A stretch of 20,939 nucleotides of DNA, from IMG/VR virus record IMGVR_UViG_3300048997_000091, positions 1 to 20,939 of that record; one strand, given 5' to 3'. Below, piece by piece: positions 1,906 through 18,703 of the stretch. The notes under the pieces are model-generated. The model was not told the DNA's origin. It was given only the letters and a program-made list of their open reading frames with translations, and made no database searches. The position numbers and the translations under genes are program-made. Position 1 is the first letter of the stretch; each line of letters starts with the position of its first letter. The stretch comes from a virus.

Positions 1906-2298
1906 TTAGATCTGTGCGGCCGGTCTGTACTGCATCAGGCCGAAGCTGCAGCCGAAGCATGTTCCGCTCTGGCGCACCGCGCGAACGAAGCATCTGGAGC
2001 GAATCCCTTTGATGGCCTGCCGGGTCACTTCCGCGGCGAGGCGCGCATCCAGGTACCCGACCTGTTCCCCGCCGGGCGTGAGCAGTGCGACTGCCTTCGG
2101 GTCGAACGGATTTTCGGGCTCTGGCGCGAGCTGCAGCTCGTCATAGGGCCCAAGGGTGCTCGCGATCTGCTGCCGGCTGGTCTGGTCGGCATTGCGGTGG
2201 GATATGCCGGCTACCTTCCCATCGAACCATGATCCTCCGCAAGCGCGGGCCTTCTGGTCCATCCAGTCTTCGAAGTCATCCTGAATCCGGGTGCTCAT
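1906..2298 (-). CDS. Small stand-alone HIRAN-domain protein
   Basis: A 130-residue protein whose residues about 27-95 match the HIRAN pattern: KVAGISHRN, then a hydrophobic strand DELQLAPEPENPFDPKAVAL with the typical ENPFDPKAV core, then GEQVGYLDARLA. HIRAN domains bind DNA ends, notably 3' single-stranded ends, in HLTF/Rad5-like remodelers, and also occur alone or fused to nucleases in bacteria and phages. No helicase or nuclease is attached here. Four cysteines (C20, C103, C114, C117) could include a CxxC metal site. The start at 2298 has AGGAG nine bases upstream, although the frame is open to 2373. It is the last gene before the terminator, a common place for accessory phage genes, so repair or counter-defence is possible but unproven. 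Confidence 0.85.
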   Translation of the reverse strand: MSTRIQDDFEDWMDQKARACGGSWFDGKVAGISHRNADQTSRQQIASTLGPYDELQLAPEPENPFDPKAVALLTPGGEQVGYLDARLAAEVTRQAIKGIRSRCFVRAVRQSGTCFGCSFGLMQYRPAAQI

Positions 2299-2339
2299 GT
2301 TCTGGCGCTCCTGGTGAGCGCTGCCCGCGCGAAGGGAAT

Positions 2340-2361
2340 GCCCGGGACCTGAGCCCCGGGC
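2340..2361. other. Short GC hairpin between tail gene and HIRAN gene
   Basis: GCCCGGG at 2340-2346 pairs with CCCGGGC at 2355-2361 across an eight-base loop. There is no T tract on either side, so it is not a standard terminator. It sits in the leader of the HIRAN gene and could be a weak pause or mRNA-stability element. Confidence 0.3.
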
Positions 2362-2428
2362 GTGGAAACGCACACAGCAAAACCCCGTGATTAGCAGGCT
2401 CTCTGTGCATTGCGGTTTTTGTCGGGTC

Positions 2429-6305: not shown

Positions 6306-9059
6306 TTAGGTGTCGATGTAGATCTCGAAGATGAAGAGGAACGATTCGGTGGTCGCAGTCAAATCGGCGATCGTTACTTCGGCCAGCACCGACACGTCGC
6401 TGAACGATGTCCCGGCCGGGATGCTTGCGGTGTAGCTCGCCACGTCGGTCGTGGTCGTGGCGTTCAGCAGGGTCACGACGGTGCCGTTGATCGTGGCCGT
6501 CAGCAGCATGTTGGAATCCACGTCGCACGCGCAGGAGGCGATCACGGTGAGGGTGGCGATCGACGTGCTCTGCGCTGGAACGAAGCCATGGAAGGAACAG
6601 GATCCCGAGGCGTAACTACTGCCGAGAGTGGATGGGTCTACATACGAACTGGCCGAAACGGTGGCGCAGTTGCTGGTGTCGCCATCAAAGGCGAAGCCCG
6701 GATTTTCCGTAGTTCGTCCGCCCTGATCGTCGTAGACGCTGGGGCTGTACCTGCTGGAACCCCCCGAACCGGAGCTTCCCGAAGGCGTTGTGATGGAGTC
6801 GATCAGGAAGTAGCCCAGCCTGCCCAAGAAATCGTTCTTATCGAGGGTGGCGATGGGCGAAACGTTCCCTCCAGCAGTAGTGGGATCGATGTAATAGACC
6901 CAGTAGAGCCGCTGCTGCGTAAGGCCGGTGATGGTGACCGCGCCGGCCGGAAAGATGGACAGCGTGCGGTTGCCGAACCGCGCGGAGAAGGGACGGCAGA
7001 TGATGGCCGCCGTGCCTCCGGAGCGGGCCTCCGCGATCAGCGAGCCGCGGCCATAACCGTCCTGCGTGACGGTCGAGAGCACATAGCCCGCCGTGAAGCC
7101 GTCGATCTCTACCCAGACAGAGGCCGCCCCGTTTGCCCGCAGTGAGCGGATCCGCACGTTGTAGGTGGTGCCTGAGACGATCGGTGCAATGTATCCAATG
7201 TTCAGGCTGACATCGACGAGCCCGGCGTCCGTCCAGGTAGTGGCGCCAACGGCCTGCACCTGCATCTGGATCTGCTTCACGCGAATGTCGAGCGGCGTAT
7301 CCCAGGTCACCTTGATCCGCGGAATGACCGTTCCATCCGGCTGCAGCAGCGCTGTCGCCGCAGAGGACGTGAGCTGCATGTTGGTCGGCGGCGCCGGCGT
7401 ATACGGCGCCTGCAGCGGCGCGCTCGGCACGTCGTAGGGCGTCAGCTCCTCGGCCGGGCTCCATTCGAGGTCCGACGCCGCGGTCTCCTGCACGCCAACC
7501 TCGAGGTACAGGCGCGGGGCCCCGGTACCGGAAGTCTCAACTTGGAAGTTGACGGACGAGACTTCCAGCAGCTTGTCCTCCCAGCCATTCGCGGCAAAGC
7601 TGAACAGAAAGGTATCCAGGGGCTGCAATTGAAAGGCCTGCAGGCCCATTACAAATGAGCCGGTGCCCTGCCGCCTGTTGCGGCGCAGCGCGATCTTCGC
7701 CAGGCGCTGCGCCTGCGAGACACTGAGGACGCACGGACGGGATATCTCTTTGGAGAGCGGAACCCCGCCGTCCTGGGCCAGGTACTCATCAGCCGAATAG
7801 CCATGCAGAACATCGGCTGCGTACTGCGGATAATTCGTGGGTTGAAACGCGAACGGAAAGTTGTTCTGGATCGTGCCCTGGTACCAGCCGTTCCGGTCGT
7901 AGACGTTGCCGGCGACGTTGTAGGGATAGTTCGGCGCGGTATAGGTCCCGGTGACTCGATTGAAGAGCTCGCGATAGGAGCGGTTCGCGCTCCACTTCAT
8001 TGGTGCGACCAGGTGGTCCGCACCGAAAGACGCCGACGGTCCCTGCCAGTAGGCCGGCCAGATGTACCATTCGCCGCCGATCCGCGACAACCGGCCCTCG
8101 GCCGCGGTCATTAGCGTGGCGATCGCGTCCCCCGGCCCAACCGAGGTGTCATAGTGCCAATGCGCCGAGTAGCGCGCTTCGTACCCTCCGCCAGCCAGCG
8201 GGACCTGCTCGTCACAGACGTTCGCGGCCGCGATCAGCTGGGCCTGGTTTACGGTCGGATCGCCCAGACCGAACTCGGTGTCAGTGAAGACATCATTGAC
8301 GAGGAGGGCCATATTGGTGCTGAAGGCCGTCGTGGAGGTCCGCGGGTCGTACACTTCCTTGCCGTGGACTGTGAAGCGGATCTCCGGCTCGCCCTGGAAC
8401 AATGCGTCGTCGTGAACGATCTTCAGATACACGTAGGTGCAGCCCCCCAGATAGGGGCTGCCGCCCGACGTCGAGGTCCAGGTGGGATCGTTGGCGGTGA
8501 GCCCGCCGATGATGTCTCCGGGGAGCTGCTCGCCGTACCGGGCCTCGCAATAGACCTTGCCGCCGAAGTTGTAATGCGCGCCATTGGGCCCGATGTACTC
8601 GTTGCCGTCCGCGTCCCCGCCGAACCCTATGCCATCCCGAACCGTATAGGCGTACTGGCTGCCGGGGTTGAAGTGGACTTTGCGGCCGTCCAGATACAGC
8701 GATTCGATCAGGTGACACTTGTGCGTCGCGATGACGATGACGTAGTTGAACTGGTTGTGCGTTGCACCCGTGGTGGAGCGATAAACCTCTACGCCGCCGA
8801 CGCGCTGCACGCCATAAATGATCTGGCGATAGGAAGCAGCCTGGCGGGTGGTGATGTTCTGTCCGCGGTTGGAAGTGAGAGCATCGGCGATCGCGCCGAC
8901 TTCCATGGACAGGCCGCCGAGGGCGAGAGCTTCCATCGCATGGAGGGCCATCCAGGTGTGCATCAGCCCTTCAAGGACTGCGCCGCCGACGCCGAGAGTG
9001 AACGCTCCCAGCACAGCTGCACCGGCCAGCATCGCTGCGCCCTGAACCGCTTTACTCAT
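6306..9059 (-). CDS. Tail tip attachment protein, J-like
   Basis: A 917-residue central tail-tip protein that would form the host-contacting tip of the tail tube. The N-terminus has an alanine/glycine-rich hydrophobic stretch (about 8-32), often seen in J-like proteins of this tail type. The middle (about 85-540) is the baseplate-hub region, with many aromatic residues and a conserved-looking RELFNRVTGTY segment near 385. A fibronectin type III-like domain follows at about 570-665 (TPAPPTNMQL...IKVTWDTP...TYNVRIRSLRANG). The rest is beta-rich and probably the variable host-range part. The ATG at 9059 has AAGGAAG nine bases upstream. It follows the three small tip genes and precedes the fibre-like genes, the standard place for J. 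It is shorter than lambda J (about 1130). Confidence 0.88.
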   Translation of the reverse strand: MSKAVQGAAMLAGAAVLGAFTLGVGGAVLEGLMHTWMALHAMEALALGGLSMEVGAIADALTSNRGQNITTRQAASYRQIIYGVQRVGGVEVYRSTTGATHNQFNYVIVIATHKCHLIESLYLDGRKVHFNPGSQYAYTVRDGIGFGGDADGNEYIGPNGAHYNFGGKVYCEARYGEQLPGDIIGGLTANDPTWTSTSGGSPYLGGCTYVYLKIVHDDALFQGEPEIRFTVHGKEVYDPRTSTTAFSTNMALLVNDVFTDTEFGLGDPTVNQAQLIAAANVCDEQVPLAGGGYEARYSAHWHYDTSVGPGDAIATLMTAAEGRLSRIGGEWYIWPAYWQGPSASFGADHLVAPMKWSANRSYRELFNRVTGTYTAPNYPYNVAGNVYDRNGWYQGTIQNNFPFAFQPTNYPQYAADVLHGYSADEYLAQDGGVPLSKEISRPCVLSVSQAQRLAKIALRRNRRQGTGSFVMGLQAFQLQPLDTFLFSFAANGWEDKLLEVSSVNFQVETSGTGAPRLYLEVGVQETAASDLEWSPAEELTPYDVPSAPLQAPYTPAPPTNMQLTSSAATALLQPDGTVIPRIKVTWDTPLDIRVKQIQMQVQAVGATTWTDAGLVDVSLNIGYIAPIVSGTTYNVRIRSLRANGAASVWVEIDGFTAGYVLSTVTQDGYGRGSLIAEARSGGTAAIICRPFSARFGNRTLSIFPAGAVTITGLTQQRLYWVYYIDPTTAGGNVSPIATLDKNDFLGRLGYFLIDSITTPSGSSGSGGSSRYSPSVYDDQGGRTTENPGFAFDGDTSNCATVSASSYVDPSTLGSSYASGSCSFHGFVPAQSTSIATLTVIASCACDVDSNMLLTATINGTVVTLLNATTTTDVASYTASIPAGTSFSDVSVLAEVTIADLTATTESFLFIFEIYIDT

Positions 9060-9083
9060 GAAGTGACTTCCTTAAAGCTCGAA

Positions 9084-9102
9084 GCCGCCCCTGGTGGGCG
9101 GC
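9084..9102. other. Hairpin before the J-like gene
   Basis: GCCGCCC (9084-9090) pairs perfectly with GGGCGGC (9096-9102) across five bases. It lies in the 71-base gap between the peptidase-like gene and the J-like gene. No T tract follows on the minus strand, so it may be a pause or processing site rather than a full terminator. Confidence 0.35.
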
Positions 9103-9130
9103 GGTGATGAATCGCGATGCGGGAGTGGTT

Positions 9131-9571
9131 CTAGACCTTCCAGGCTCGGGTAACGGCGCTTGCAGGCAGTCGCTTCAAGCCCTCAGCGCCGGCACTGACC
9201 ACGTGCCTGCCGTTCAGGTCCACAATGCCGGCGATGAGCCGGTCGGCGTCCTGAATCACAACCAGGTCGCCGCGCTGGGCGAGCAGTGGAGAGGGCCACT
9301 CGACGAGCCCATGCTTCGCGGCGCAGTGGGCAGCAGCATCGGCAACCGTAGAGCCTCCGGTCACTTCGCGGATCAACCGGAACGCCTCAACTTCCGTGCT
9401 GTACTTGCCCCGGAAGTCATCGGCGATGTCGGTACCGGTCATCGCGAGGATCGCGTCCGCCGGTGTGAGGCAGCAATCGATCGTGCCCCAGGAGAAGGGG
9501 ACGCGATCGCGCTCCCGCAAGAATTGGGTGAGTTCCCTGGTGTCCCAGGTGTGCGTGCGTGTGAGTGGCAT
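9131..9571 (-). CDS. Tail-tip peptidase-like protein (DUF6950-like)
   Basis: A 146-residue protein resembling the DUF6950 group, thought to have an NlpC/P60-like fold and found where phages and gene transfer agents carry their tail-tip cell-wall peptidase (the lambda K position). The N-terminal part has the typical FSWGTIDCCLTPADAI segment with paired cysteines C33 and C34, followed by a DDFRGKY signature at 51-57. The C-terminal GDLVVIQDADRLIAGIVD strand pair fits the fold. A histidine (H123) is present, but I cannot say that it completes an active site, so the protein may be structural. Its ATG overlaps the stop of the upstream gene (TGATG), showing translational coupling. Confidence 0.75.
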   Translation of the reverse strand: MPLTRTHTWDTRELTQFLRERDRVPFSWGTIDCCLTPADAILAMTGTDIADDFRGKYSTEVEAFRLIREVTGGSTVADAAAHCAAKHGLVEWPSPLLAQRGDLVVIQDADRLIAGIVDLNGRHVVSAGAEGLKRLPASAVTRAWKV

Positions 9572-10125
9572 CAGGCCCCCCAGCGGAGAGCGATGTCGCT
9601 CAAAATTTCGACCCAGTTGAAACCGATGTCATCGGGATACCTGATGTGCTGGTCGGCTGCTGTATAGCGCCGCTGGGATGCCCGCTGCAGGTTCGTCATC
9701 CGGGACTCGAGCGCGAGAGAGATGGTCATCGATTCCGGACCGGGCGACGTCGTCGGCTTGTCGACCAGGCCGGAAAAGAGCAGGTAGGGAGCGCCGAGCA
9801 GCGCCCCCTGAGACAGGAGCGCAAGCCAGATCTTCGCGGGCGCCCCGAGCTTGATGTCGGTGAGGGACTCGGCGTACAGCGCCGGATCTACGCCGGACAG
9901 CGACACGCTGGTGCCATCGGCGCGGACCTCCGAGCCTTCGGTAATCGTTCCGACACCGCCGAGAGCACCAACGCCCAGATAGGTCTGCGCGTCATAGACC
10001 AGCGGGCCGATGCCGGTCCAGATGTGCTGCACGCCAGAATTGAAGGTGAGCTGCACAAGGATCGCCGGAGAGATGACTCCCTGGTCGAGCGCCGCCTGAA
10101 AGGCTGAATCGAGTATGCGAGGCAT
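9571..10125 (-). CDS. Tail-tip hub protein (DUF2163-like)
   Basis: A 184-residue protein resembling the tail-tip family that sits just before the peptidase in lambdoid and gene-transfer-agent-like tails. Evidence is the YLGVGALGGVGTI segment at about 49-61, the LSGVDPALYAE segment at about 76-86, the strand PAKIWLALL at about 95-103 and the near C-terminal signature RRYTAADQHIRYPDD at about 151-165. Related proteins cap the tail tube and bind the tip protein. It is close to full length for the single-domain version. The ATG at 10125 follows the upstream stop directly (TAGATG). Confidence 0.75.
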   Translation of the reverse strand: MPRILDSAFQAALDQGVISPAILVQLTFNSGVQHIWTGIGPLVYDAQTYLGVGALGGVGTITEGSEVRADGTSVSLSGVDPALYAESLTDIKLGAPAKIWLALLSQGALLGAPYLLFSGLVDKPTTSPGPESMTISLALESRMTNLQRASQRRYTAADQHIRYPDDIGFNWVEILSDIALRWGA

Positions 10126-15720: not shown

Positions 15721-16046
15721 TTCGGTTGCTCCAGGCACATCAGGTTCAACTCCCGGCGGTTCTCGTCCGGGTCGCTGACCAGCTGCACTAGGAAGCGCCG
15801 GTCACGGTAGAGCACGGTCATTCCCTGCGCCAGGCTGACACTGGGGAAGCGCACGGTCACCTTGTGAGTCACCTGCGCTGTGAAGCCGGCGCCAAGCGCG
15901 TAGATCTCTTTCGAGCTCGCCACGGTGATGGCCGCCCTGCAGCTCAGAACGGTTGTGTCCGGTCCAGCTCCGGGCTGGCCGGATTGATCCTGCGTTTCCG
16001 AGGGCGCCGTAATCGCGATCCGGCGCTTGAGCTGGCCGCTGCGCAT
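15717..16046 (-). CDS. Head-tail adaptor (phage head-tail joining protein)
   Basis: A 109-residue protein of the small head-tail joining family (HK97 gp7/gp9 or SPP1 gp16 type). It binds under the connector ring and completes the DNA channel. Evidence is the N-terminal MRSGQLKRRIAITAPSETQDQSGQP, which is very typical of the family (GxLxxRIxI then a D-GQ loop), the KEIYALGAGFTAQVTHKVTVRF middle with the conserved H-V-RF, and the end DRRFLVQLVSDPDENRRELNLMC. Size is normal for the family. Start and stop overlap the neighbouring genes (TGATG and ATGA). Confidence 0.88.
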   Translation of the reverse strand: MRSGQLKRRIAITAPSETQDQSGQPGAGPDTTVLSCRAAITVASSKEIYALGAGFTAQVTHKVTVRFPSVSLAQGMTVLYRDRRFLVQLVSDPDENRRELNLMCLEQPK

Positions 16047-16732
16047 CAGGCCCCCTCGAAGCTGAAGATGGGCGGAGCGGCTTCGCTATCGAGCAACGAA
16101 TCCACAAACTTCGGCACGACGGTGACCGCATTCGTGGAATTCGTGAGGACCACGCTCTCGCGGTTCTCGTACCAATGCGCGACCAGGCCGAGGATCGCAA
16201 GCTGAACGCTGGCGGGCACCGTATCGGGCGTGTCGCCATAGCCCGCGGTATACGTGACCTGGACAACGTCACTGCGACCGTATGCCGTGGAAGGCCAGTA
16301 GGTGCCGGGTTTCGGGAGGATCCGCGCGGGCTCCGCGTCAGCATCGACCGCGTACAGGCTGGGATTGAGCGTCTGGCGAACTCCGGACGGGTCAAGGTAG
16401 GTGACCGAGGCGACCGCCATCAGCCGCGGACGCGGCAAGAGGATTGGCGCCGGACCGAGAAAGCCGCTGTACGAGAAGCCGAAGCCTGGCCTCGATGTCG
16501 TTCCCAGGCGCCAGGGCTCCGTCATCCAGCCGGGGAACCGGTCCAGCGACAAGCGCCACGTCTGTTCCAGAAAAGCGCGGCCGGTGTACTTTTCCGCATA
16601 CTCGCGAGCGGCTTTGATGTACACGCTCAGCAGCTCGTTTTCGGTATCTGCGTCGATCACGCAGTGATCGGCTGCCAAGCCGAGTGTTACGGGTTCTACG
16701 GTGGCGTCGACCGTACGTTGGAGGGCAATCAT
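16046..16732 (-). CDS. Head-tail connector, gp6-like (phiE125 gp8 family)
   Basis: A 228-residue connector that would form a ring beneath the portal. The N-terminal region has the family hallmark LLSVYIKAAREYAEKYTGRAFLEQTWRLSLDRFP (about 35-68). It continues with PILLPRPRLMAVASVTYLDPSG (about 95-116), the LNPSLYAVD strand, and the C-terminal VQVTYTAGYGDTPDTVPASVQLAIL helix region with HWYENRESV (about 188-196). Length fits the phiE125 gp8-type subgroup rather than the shorter HK97 gp6 (about 110). The ATG at 16732 overlaps the stop of the upstream small gene by four bases. Confidence 0.87.
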   Translation of the reverse strand: MIALQRTVDATVEPVTLGLAADHCVIDADTENELLSVYIKAAREYAEKYTGRAFLEQTWRLSLDRFPGWMTEPWRLGTTSRPGFGFSYSGFLGPAPILLPRPRLMAVASVTYLDPSGVRQTLNPSLYAVDADAEPARILPKPGTYWPSTAYGRSDVVQVTYTAGYGDTPDTVPASVQLAILGLVAHWYENRESVVLTNSTNAVTVVPKFVDSLLDSEAAPPIFSFEGA

Positions 16733-16974
16733 GGGCGGCGGCCGCCCTTCACGAACTTGGGTTTCGGCTTGCCGGCGGGCCGCGGGCCAGGACGCGGAAC
16801 GACAGCCGCATTCTCCGGCCGGGGAAGTGTGGCCTGTTCAGCGATCGGCACGGCGACGGCCTCCTTGCGGGTGATGAATGCGCTGCCGAGCTCGTCCGGG
16901 ACCACTGCTATCTGCCCACGGGTCCACTGCACGTTTCCGTACTGCAGAGCGGGAATGGTGATGCGAACCTGCAT
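16729..16974 (-). CDS. Small Pro/Lys-rich phage protein between capsid and connector
   Basis: An 81-residue protein of unrecognised family. The first 45 residues (MQVRITIPALQYGNVQWTRGQ...) could be two or three beta strands. The last 30 are rich in proline, lysine and arginine (PRPGPRPAGKPKPKFVKGGRRP), a disordered basic tail that might contact nucleic acid. The frame is open to 17172, but I chose the ATG at 16974. It has GGAG five bases upstream, and the longer version would overlap the plus-strand gene and read as low-quality protein. It is coupled to the connector by a four-base overlap, so it belongs to the head genes. Confidence 0.65.
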   Translation of the reverse strand: MQVRITIPALQYGNVQWTRGQIAVVPDELGSAFITRKEAVAVPIAEQATLPRPENAAVVPRPGPRPAGKPKPKFVKGGRRP

Positions 16975-16979
16975 GGAAA

Positions 16980-16996
16980 CTCCGGAGGCTACAATT
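16980..16996 (+). promoter_or_regulatory. Promoter-like element of the plus-strand gene, overlapping the minus-strand ribosome site
   Basis: The 28-base gap between divergent genes holds CTCCGGAG (16980-16987), an eight-base palindrome that supplies GGAG for the minus-strand gene. It is followed by GGCTACAAT (16988-16996), with TACAAT at 16990-16995 and the plus-strand ATG seven bases later. That spacing suits leaderless transcription. No clear -35 box is seen. Confidence 0.45.
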
Positions 16997-17002
16997 TCGG
17001 GA

Positions 17003-17248
17003 ATGAACGATCTGCGCGTCCCCGCCCCCCCCGGAGCGTTGGCAATGTTCGGTAAATGCGAGGTCTGCGGGGAGCAGGCGTTTGTCATGGTGCGCGATTT
17101 CTTGTGGGCCACAAACCCGGTGAGTCCATGGCGCGAGTACAGGCCCGATGGAGACATCCACCGGTTCTGCAAGACACACCAGCGAAAGTCCCGGAACCGA
17201 GAGGTCTACATCGACTTACTGCCGCCCCTGGGAGCGGCGAGTCTCTAA
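17003..17248 (+). CDS. Small CxxC...CxxH putative zinc-binding protein, moron-like
   Basis: An 81-residue protein on the strand opposite to all the structural genes. C19-x2-C22 (KCEVCGEQ) and C56-x2-H59 (FCKTHQRKSR) could bind one zinc ion, and a basic patch follows. Between them lie aromatic strands (FVMVRDFLW and PWREYRPDGDIHRF). No named family is recognised. The ATG at 17003 is chosen because a GGCTACAAT box lies just upstream. The same frame is open far upstream (to 16175), but that part is antisense to the connector gene and not protein-like. It fills the gap between the capsid stop and the next phage gene and ends inside a perfect 12-bp hairpin. Own promoter, opposite strand and own terminator are the marks of a moron expressed from the prophage. 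Its function is unknown. Confidence 0.65.
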   Translation: MNDLRVPAPPGALAMFGKCEVCGEQAFVMVRDFLWATNPVSPWREYRPDGDIHRFCKTHQRKSRNREVYIDLLPPLGAASL

Positions 17249-17261
17249 ACTCGCCGCTCCC
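17230..17261. terminator. Perfect 12-bp hairpin between convergent genes
   Basis: GGGAGCGGCGAG (17230-17241) pairs perfectly with CTCGCCGCTCCC (17250-17261) over an eight-base loop that contains the stop codon of the plus-strand gene. It starts 16 bases after the capsid stop on the other strand, so it can act in both directions. T tracts are weak (GTTGTTCT at 17271-17278 on the plus side). Structural genes downstream of the capsid need read-through, so on the minus strand it is probably partial. Confidence 0.65.
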
Positions 17262-17276: not shown

Positions 17277-18557
17277 CTATGCGTGCTGCTGCAGGACCTG
17301 GATCGGGTGGCTGCCGGCGTCCAGCAGGCGGGAGCCCGCACGGAAGAAGCCGAGGAAGGCGATCTGGTTCGCAGTGGCGAAACGCTCGTCCAGACGCTGG
17401 ACCTCCATCGCCTCGACGGTCCGCAGAAGGTACTTCTGCAGGTTGCCGAAGATCACGGCGCGATTGCCGGCCGCGATGTCGGGCGTGTTGACATCGATGA
17501 CGATGTCCTGCCCGAACAGCTTGGTGACCAGGCCGTTCGCATCCAGCTGGAAGATCGGCGCGCCGAGCCCGTTGCGCTGGGTCGACAGGTAGATCTGGGT
17601 GCGGCGATTCATCACGAACTTGCCCTGGTTCGCGTACGACGGATCCAGCGCACCGAACAAGTTGGCCACGTCGGACAGAGTGATGATCGCGGGGTCCGCG
17701 GACGTCGCGCCGAGGTGAGCGGAAGCGGCGAGCGGATCGAAGTTCGCGTTGGTGCTGGTGCCCATCACGTACTTCGACAGACCGCGGCCGGCCCGCTCGC
17801 CAAGGTTGTCCTTGATGAACGCGCCGAAATCGAAGGCCGCATCACGAACCAGCGTGCGCGGGATCTTCACCATGCCGGTCTGCAGGATGGCGACGGTCAA
17901 CGCCGTGGTGGCAAGCACCAGGTCGTTCTCATCCTGGTCCGTGTTCTCGCCGATGACGGTCGCTGCATTGGCGGTGTCGTTCGAGAGCGGCCAGTTCATC
18001 TGCTCGCCCGTGGTGGTAGGGAGCAGCCTGACGAAGCCGGCGACACCGCCGTACGCCAGGGTGGCGCGCTCGACGTCCGGTACCAGCTCGGTCGGAATCG
18101 CATAGCCGCCGCCCGGGCCGGTTGCGGCGCCCATCGCGCGGAGTTCCTCATCGCGGCCGGTCACCATGTAATTGCGATAGGCGGCGGTGTACTGACGTCC
18201 ACGCTCTTCGCGCTGTGCCTGGTCGGCTGCACGCTGGTCGGCGGTCTGATCACCCTGGCCCTGGCCGGGCTGGGGCAGTGGAGGACGGCCGGCGCGGAGG
18301 GCGCGCTCTTCGGCTTCCACGCGGCTGCGCTCTTCGGCGGCGAAGCGGGAGGCCTCGTCCATCAGAGCGATGTCGGTGCCGATCTGGCGGGCTTCCGCGA
18401 AGCTGTTTTCGATGGTGGAGCGTTGCTCGGCCGTGATGGTGGTGTTGCCGAGCAGGGCCGTGGCGGAGGCCAGCAAAGCGGAGCGGCGATCGGCCTTCTG
18501 CTGACGGGTCTCCGCAGCATTTGCCTGGATGCGGGCGAGGATGAGGGTGTAACGCAT
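17277..18557 (-). CDS. Major capsid protein, HK97 fold
   Basis: A 426-residue HK97-type capsid protein. Residues 1 to about 115 form a charged, helical, coiled-coil scaffold (delta) domain, followed by a Pro/Gln-rich linker (PLPQPGQGQGDQ, 94-105). The core starts near 125 and includes GPGGGYAIPTELVPDVERATLAYGGV (about 148-173), the usual entry to the HK97 N-arm and E-loop, then MNWPLSNDTANAATVIGEN, and the P-domain helix region FGAFIKDNLGERAGRGLSKYVM (about 250-271). The delta domain is presumably removed by the prohead protease encoded just upstream. I chose the ATG at 18557, with AAAGGAA eight bases before, over the open frame to 18641. A strong hairpin follows. Confidence 0.92.
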   Translation of the reverse strand: MRYTLILARIQANAAETRQQKADRRSALLASATALLGNTTITAEQRSTIENSFAEARQIGTDIALMDEASRFAAEERSRVEAEERALRAGRPPLPQPGQGQGDQTADQRAADQAQREERGRQYTAAYRNYMVTGRDEELRAMGAATGPGGGYAIPTELVPDVERATLAYGGVAGFVRLLPTTTGEQMNWPLSNDTANAATVIGENTDQDENDLVLATTALTVAILQTGMVKIPRTLVRDAAFDFGAFIKDNLGERAGRGLSKYVMGTSTNANFDPLAASAHLGATSADPAIITLSDVANLFGALDPSYANQGKFVMNRRTQIYLSTQRNGLGAPIFQLDANGLVTKLFGQDIVIDVNTPDIAAGNRAVIFGNLQKYLLRTVEAMEVQRLDERFATANQIAFLGFFRAGSRLLDAGSHPIQVLQQHA

Positions 18558-18703
18558 GGTGGTTTCCTTTTTGGGGTGGCGCGACAGCTCAACCGCGGCT
18601 GCGGGAACTTCGGGCTCGAGCGCACGACATCCTGTCGCCATCGAAGGGAGCCCATGCGGGCCAGGGTCCTGCGCGGTTGTGGTTGGGCTAAGGCGCCGGG
18701 GCG
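18558..18703 (-). other. 146-base leader before the capsid gene
   Basis: This is the longest gap inside the head operon. The reading frame of the capsid is open through part of it but gives no phage-like sequence. A small hairpin (CGACA-TCC-TGTCG at about 18625-18640) is the only structure noticed. A leader of this length before the most abundant product could hold a promoter or a processing site, but no clear boxes were found. Confidence 0.3.

Follow-up and report, generated by a model that had tools for sequence, protein, structure and literature searches.

A probable gene for a small predicted zinc protein opposite the late genes of a phage, between its capsid and head-tail adaptor genes

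The window analyzed here, meaning the whole virus record of 20,939 bases, carries a short open reading frame (ORF) on the plus strand between the capsid gene and the small gene preceding the head-tail adaptor gene (Table 1). An initial annotation of the sequence had read it as a real opposite-strand gene for a small zinc protein of an unrecognised family. Is this ORF a gene, what kind of protein would it encode, and what might that protein do for the phage?

An additional gene in the capsid-adaptor interval

From 847 to 20894, every phage gene that could be recognised reads leftwards, as had been claimed. The set comprises the genes for the portal, head protease and capsid, the small gene, and the genes for the head-tail adaptor, head closure, tail terminator and major tail proteins, together with one gene of tape measure size, tail genes and an integrase gene. 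A gene for a HIRAN-domain protein (1906-2373, minus strand; Pfam E 3.5e-8) adjoins the integrase gene at the left end. Translation of the plus-strand ORF confirmed an 81-aa product (P0001) with a CxxC and a CxxH motif separated by 34 residues (from C22 to C56). Using the tail protein encoded at 6306-9059, we found the closest relatives among phages and prophages of Acidobacteriaceae (Granulicella, Edaphobacter and MAGs), and the host is therefore very probably an acidobacterium.

The distance from the capsid stop codon to the adaptor gene is 545 nt in the window and approximately 240-340 nt (mostly 243-336) in relatives with one small gene, so that the window interval exceeds that of most relatives by about 250 nt. 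No homologue of the plus-strand gene was found in approximately 150 loci or in 39 records of related phages, in line with the proposal that an extra gene occupies an otherwise conserved interval. Judging from these absences, the distribution of the gene is sporadic and accessory. The equivalent interval of locus L025 contains a 393-aa GIY-YIG/NUMOD3 (homing-type) gene (8454-9635, minus strand), which, together with the longer interval of the window, indicates that the capsid-adaptor interval is an insertion site, a place where genes enter. We also considered an N-terminal extension of the minus-strand small gene across the ORF, its frame being open to 17172. This was rejected, as the position matching ATG 16974 is where the copies in relatives begin, and the minus frames obtain poorer scores. 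In L020, the small gene of the interval (9056-9286, plus strand) starts with a different CxxC...CxxC zinc motif and has a Pro/Lys-rich tail resembling that of the window small gene, perhaps reflecting an exchange of N-terminal domains. Another relative has an 80-aa ORF with Cys pairs (L028, 2460-2699, plus strand; the same ORF as L012, 654-893, minus strand), which is oriented opposite to its late genes and lies close to where the capsid gene begins.

Table 1. Features of the plus-strand ORF and its surroundings in the window
Feature	Position	Strand	Evidence or remark
ORF as first reported, 81 aa (P0001)	17003-17248	+	Translation; in-frame homologue in L164/L185
Most likely coding sequence, 67 aa, from M15 of P0001 (MFGKCEVCG...)	17045-17248	+	GGAG and start of the homologue
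CxxC knuckle (C19, C22), first half of predicted zinc site	17057-17068	+	Invariant in eight family members
CxxH knuckle (C56, H59), second half of predicted zinc site	17168-17179	+	Invariant in eight family members
Perfect hairpin, 13 bp, arms 17230-17242 and 17249-17261, stop codon of the plus-strand gene in the loop	17230-17261		Probably the 3' stem-loop of the capsid gene
TACAAT, -10-like hexamer	16990-16995	+	Only 4 plus-strand hexamers of this kind in 20.9 kb, this one included
Major capsid protein	17277-18641	-	phrog_10, E 1.1e-41
Small gene normally directly after the capsid gene, Pro/Lys-rich tail	16729-16974	-	Weak phrog_2616, E 0.0065; similar gene in most relatives
Head-tail adaptor	16046-16732	-	phrog_442, E 1e-28

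A small family of predicted zinc proteins

The length of the ORF is uninformative, its frame being open from 16175 in a phage of 63.5% GC. With a codon score trained on the other genes of the window, the ORF obtained -0.4 bits, the best of the six frames (next -13.4), compared with 33±11.5 for true genes, and 24% of stop-free wrong frames matched this score. In codon usage it departs from the other phage genes of the window. Composition thus neither proves nor excludes a gene, and would suit a foreign one.

The case for a real gene lies instead in an in-frame homologue and in a leave-one-out family test. The search for in-frame homologues advised in the initial annotation yielded one, among seven whole genomes reached via relatives of the tail protein: a 54-aa ORF (MSETKHVCEVCGERATKLVRDRIDATDTDSGGQEWIPGPVHEFCDKHARPSREL) in the acidobacterial MAG G023 (L164/L185; 5.1 Mb genome), with 50% identity over 46 residues (E 1.2e-7) and each of the four Cys/His ligands retained. 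Terminase, portal and a single protease-capsid ORF follow downstream of it, which places it in a prophage. Only 9 of the 23 residues that it shares with the window ORF use the same codon, as selection acting at the protein level would predict. No second clear member emerged when 347 to 399 genomes of the class or phylum were surveyed, suggesting that the gene is rare; weaker matches (E 2.5e-4 to 0.009) were discarded for internal stops or for want of paired knuckles. The plus-strand gene probably starts at ATG 17045 rather than at 17003, leaving 67 aa: a GGAG (17033-17036) precedes this ATG with a spacer of 8 nt, and the homologue begins 7 residues ahead of the first Cys, a short N terminus matched by this form, while for position 17003 a GGAGG lies at a poor distance, approximately 14 nt upstream.

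Direct searches with the 81 aa were empty in Pfam, PHROGs, PDB, phage and plasmid collections, and IMG/VR. We then scanned IMG/VR with a degenerate DNA pattern for CE[x]CG, 25 to 35 residues and FCxxH, which returned 28 stretches, in frame in 11 cases (nine distinct). Two (L199 and L214) were set aside on sight and the seven other distinct members were aligned. Each member was scored against a profile of the others and compared with 1,000 shuffles that kept seven residues, since the pattern itself fixes those. The window protein, with L164 also left out of the profile, reached 48.1 bits against 9.7±4.8 for the shuffles, none of which attained that value, a result to be read with some caution as the profiles derive from an alignment made with the target included. 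Every other member except L192 beat all of its shuffles. L192 failed and was dropped, leaving six further distinct family members from the scan. The family signature, C-E-x-C-G, approximately 30 residues and H-x-F-C-x-x-H-x-R in one frame, is present in the window protein (alignment A5), whose ORF is uninterrupted with ligands and signature positions intact. The CxxC and CxxH motifs were imposed by the pattern in the members found with it and are independent in L164. Two residues that the pattern did not impose, H53 and R61, are invariant in all eight members of A5, and two more, A26 and D32, are common to most members.

The family has no model in Pfam, PHROGs, NCBIfam or PADLOC. Neither megablast of the module against phages nor tblastn of the other members against isolated phages gave a match, and such a protein is not described in the literature searched. 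We consider it highly likely, on the homologue and the family test, that the ORF is a genuine gene belonging to a genuine, unnamed phage zinc family, as the initial annotation had supposed. What was an uncharacterised ORF can thereby be assigned to a phage protein family that is small but statistically solid and lies outside the libraries used; its fold is predicted with confidence, and it offers a few residues that can be tested.

Given nine sequences, AlphaFold2 returned a model with a mean pLDDT of 85.8; given two, the value was 50.0 and the model unusable. The predicted fold is knuckle, β-hairpin, knuckle: the knuckles are separated by strands 14-23 and 30-41, a further strand spans 51-55, and the tail is loose. 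The four conserved Cys/His ligands and this model point to zinc binding, and the window protein is probably a small one-zinc protein, in agreement with the initial reading. That reading had also noted a basic patch, which exists in the window protein and is peculiar to it: net charges range from -8 to +2 and most members are acidic, a range that would argue against a general nucleic acid-binding role.

Foldseek found nothing significant in PDB or BFVD (best E 0.48). The best structural matches, all very weak, were to four bacterial type II thymidine kinases, whose zinc domains (PDB 1xx6, 8y7w, 2ja1, 3e2i) aligned with residues 1-49 of the model (Z 2.3, rmsd 2.6-3.3 Å over 37-40 residues), and L164 weakly matches the thymidine kinase family phrog_592 (E 0.07). 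With so low a Z, the likeness would be a shared zinc scaffold at most. Membership of the kinases was rejected, since a protein of 67-81 aa that matched no kinase model has no P-loop kinase domain. Small HNH proteins encoded beside phage terminases resemble the family in their two Cys/His knuckles and small size, two family members (L193 and L185) are encoded close to terminase genes, and there is one weak match to an HNH-like ORF (L184, E 6e-4). That the family represents degenerate HNH nucleases, related to those small proteins and keeping a zinc scaffold without the active site, is nonetheless extremely unlikely. No [DEH]H motif occurs between the knuckles in any of the eight members; the catalytic His with its H/D/E neighbour is therefore missing, which led us to reject HNH endonuclease membership, and the model has the hairpin without the helix that would connect it to the second knuckle. 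The structure searches point, weakly, to the thymidine kinase zinc domains instead. Similar knuckles are also present in 194-aa phage proteins (L187 and L188; CEVCGxxG...GWxHTLCxxH; 40% over a short stretch), although these are longer, have a much shorter knuckle spacing and other surroundings, and belong to AT-rich phages, so that their relation to the family is uncertain.

The hairpin and the promoter-like box

The hairpin at the end of the ORF had been taken for the terminator of the plus-strand gene. It is indeed perfect, with stabilities of -37.1 kcal/mol on the plus strand and -38.5 on the minus strand that no shuffle equalled; that it is the gene's own terminator is nonetheless not supported, for it lacks a T run, and in 19 of 28 relatives the capsid stop codon is immediately followed by a significant hairpin whose sequence differs, compared with 4 of 28 control stretches taken from within the capsid gene. 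Including the window, z was below -2 in 20 of 29 non-redundant cases. Since most relatives carry such a hairpin just after the capsid stop, that of the window most likely belongs to the 3' end of the capsid gene, as an old feature rather than a moron terminator. No Rfam match was obtained. Strong hairpins conserved in position but unrelated in sequence after capsid genes are a general observation in these acidobacterial and related phages, most of which have one, and a warning against reading them as moron terminators.

The final codons of the plus-strand gene (LGAASL) and its stop codon fall inside the hairpin and outside the conserved domain. Such a C-terminal tail made from the capsid hairpin, the low codon score and the homing-type gene in the interval of L025 would all suit a gene that is decaying or that came as a passenger with a mobile cassette, in an interval that collects selfish DNA, encoding a zinc protein without present function. 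We find this decidedly unlikely, given a frame free of interruptions in which every ligand and signature position has been retained. The plus-strand gene is also convergent with the capsid gene and the hairpin is common to both 3' ends, so one could imagine that the RNA matters and not the protein, acting against the capsid mRNA and lowering late expression in the lysogen. Conservation of the protein sequence in phages where the gene is not antisense makes this highly improbable, and the overlap with the capsid mRNA would be short unless transcription runs on.

Upstream, the promoter-like box survives only as a -10-like hexamer, located 50 nt before the likely start ATG 17045. It has no -35 element, and a sigma-70 scan gave no match, which makes it weak as a promoter.

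Possible roles of the zinc protein

We favor, at a probability of roughly one half, an acquired accessory (moron-type) gene encoding a zinc adaptor, whose function we infer. The gene would have been inserted opposite the late operon, between the 3' stem-loop of the capsid gene and the small gene before the adaptor gene. Its product (67 aa, at most 81) would bind one zinc ion through C19, C22, C56 and H59, folding as a knuckle, a long β-hairpin and a second knuckle, followed by a loose tail for which the pre-existing hairpin supplies part of the coding sequence. It may serve as a protein-protein adaptor modifying a host or phage protein, a proposal based on the lack of recognisable catalytic residues and of a consistent positive charge across the family. 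Transcription would start from its own short upstream region and run against the late operon, which suggests expression most likely in the lysogen. An antisense orientation to the lytic genes, combined with a promoter of its own, has been described as typical of genes in prophage accessory loci (PMC7067206). The antisense moron locus STMMW_20121 of ST64B (PMC7067206) is, like the window gene, small, antisense to lytic genes and absent from relatives; the window gene differs in belonging to another protein family and in having no convincing promoter or terminator of its own. Against the moron reading stand the missing -35 element, the codon usage unlike that of the other phage genes and the absence of a genetic link to a host function. 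The immunity role that had been suggested is possible, and nothing specific came to its support: PADLOC gave no match for the window protein and two single-member matches for other members (E 0.025-0.028), and several members are encoded among head, packaging and tail genes on the same strand.

The surroundings of these other members bear on the partner of the protein. The L193 member lies between terminase and portal genes, its ATG overlapping the terminase stop codon. The L185 member is upstream of the terminase gene, and in L190 (1616-3475, plus strand) the zinc domain forms the N terminus of a 619-aa protease-capsid ORF. These three are on the same strand as the head genes, and the L208 member, directly after the tape measure gene, is on that of the tail genes, which suggests late expression and would count against the moron reading. 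With the window copy adjoining the capsid gene, the pattern fits an accessory factor that acts late, in head assembly or packaging, as a zinc ribbon binding a head, portal or terminase protein, and whose antisense place here would be a by-product of recombination. We regard such a factor as less likely than the moron-type adaptor, yet as a serious rival to it. Against it, the window gene is oriented opposite to late transcription, it is missing from relatives that share the head module, and other members lie outside head modules, near integrase and repressor-like genes (L207 and L215) or near an endolysin gene (L211). Very unlikely, in our view, is a combination in which all eight members are phage-specific zinc adaptors acting on the head or packaging machinery, the window copy having come under antisense control so as to act in the lysogen, for example by interfering with the head assembly of competing phages. 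That members recur in head and packaging modules, in one case at the N terminus of a protease-capsid ORF, offers a concrete hypothesis on the binding partner. The L190 ORF has an internal ATG at residue 75, and two products are possible.
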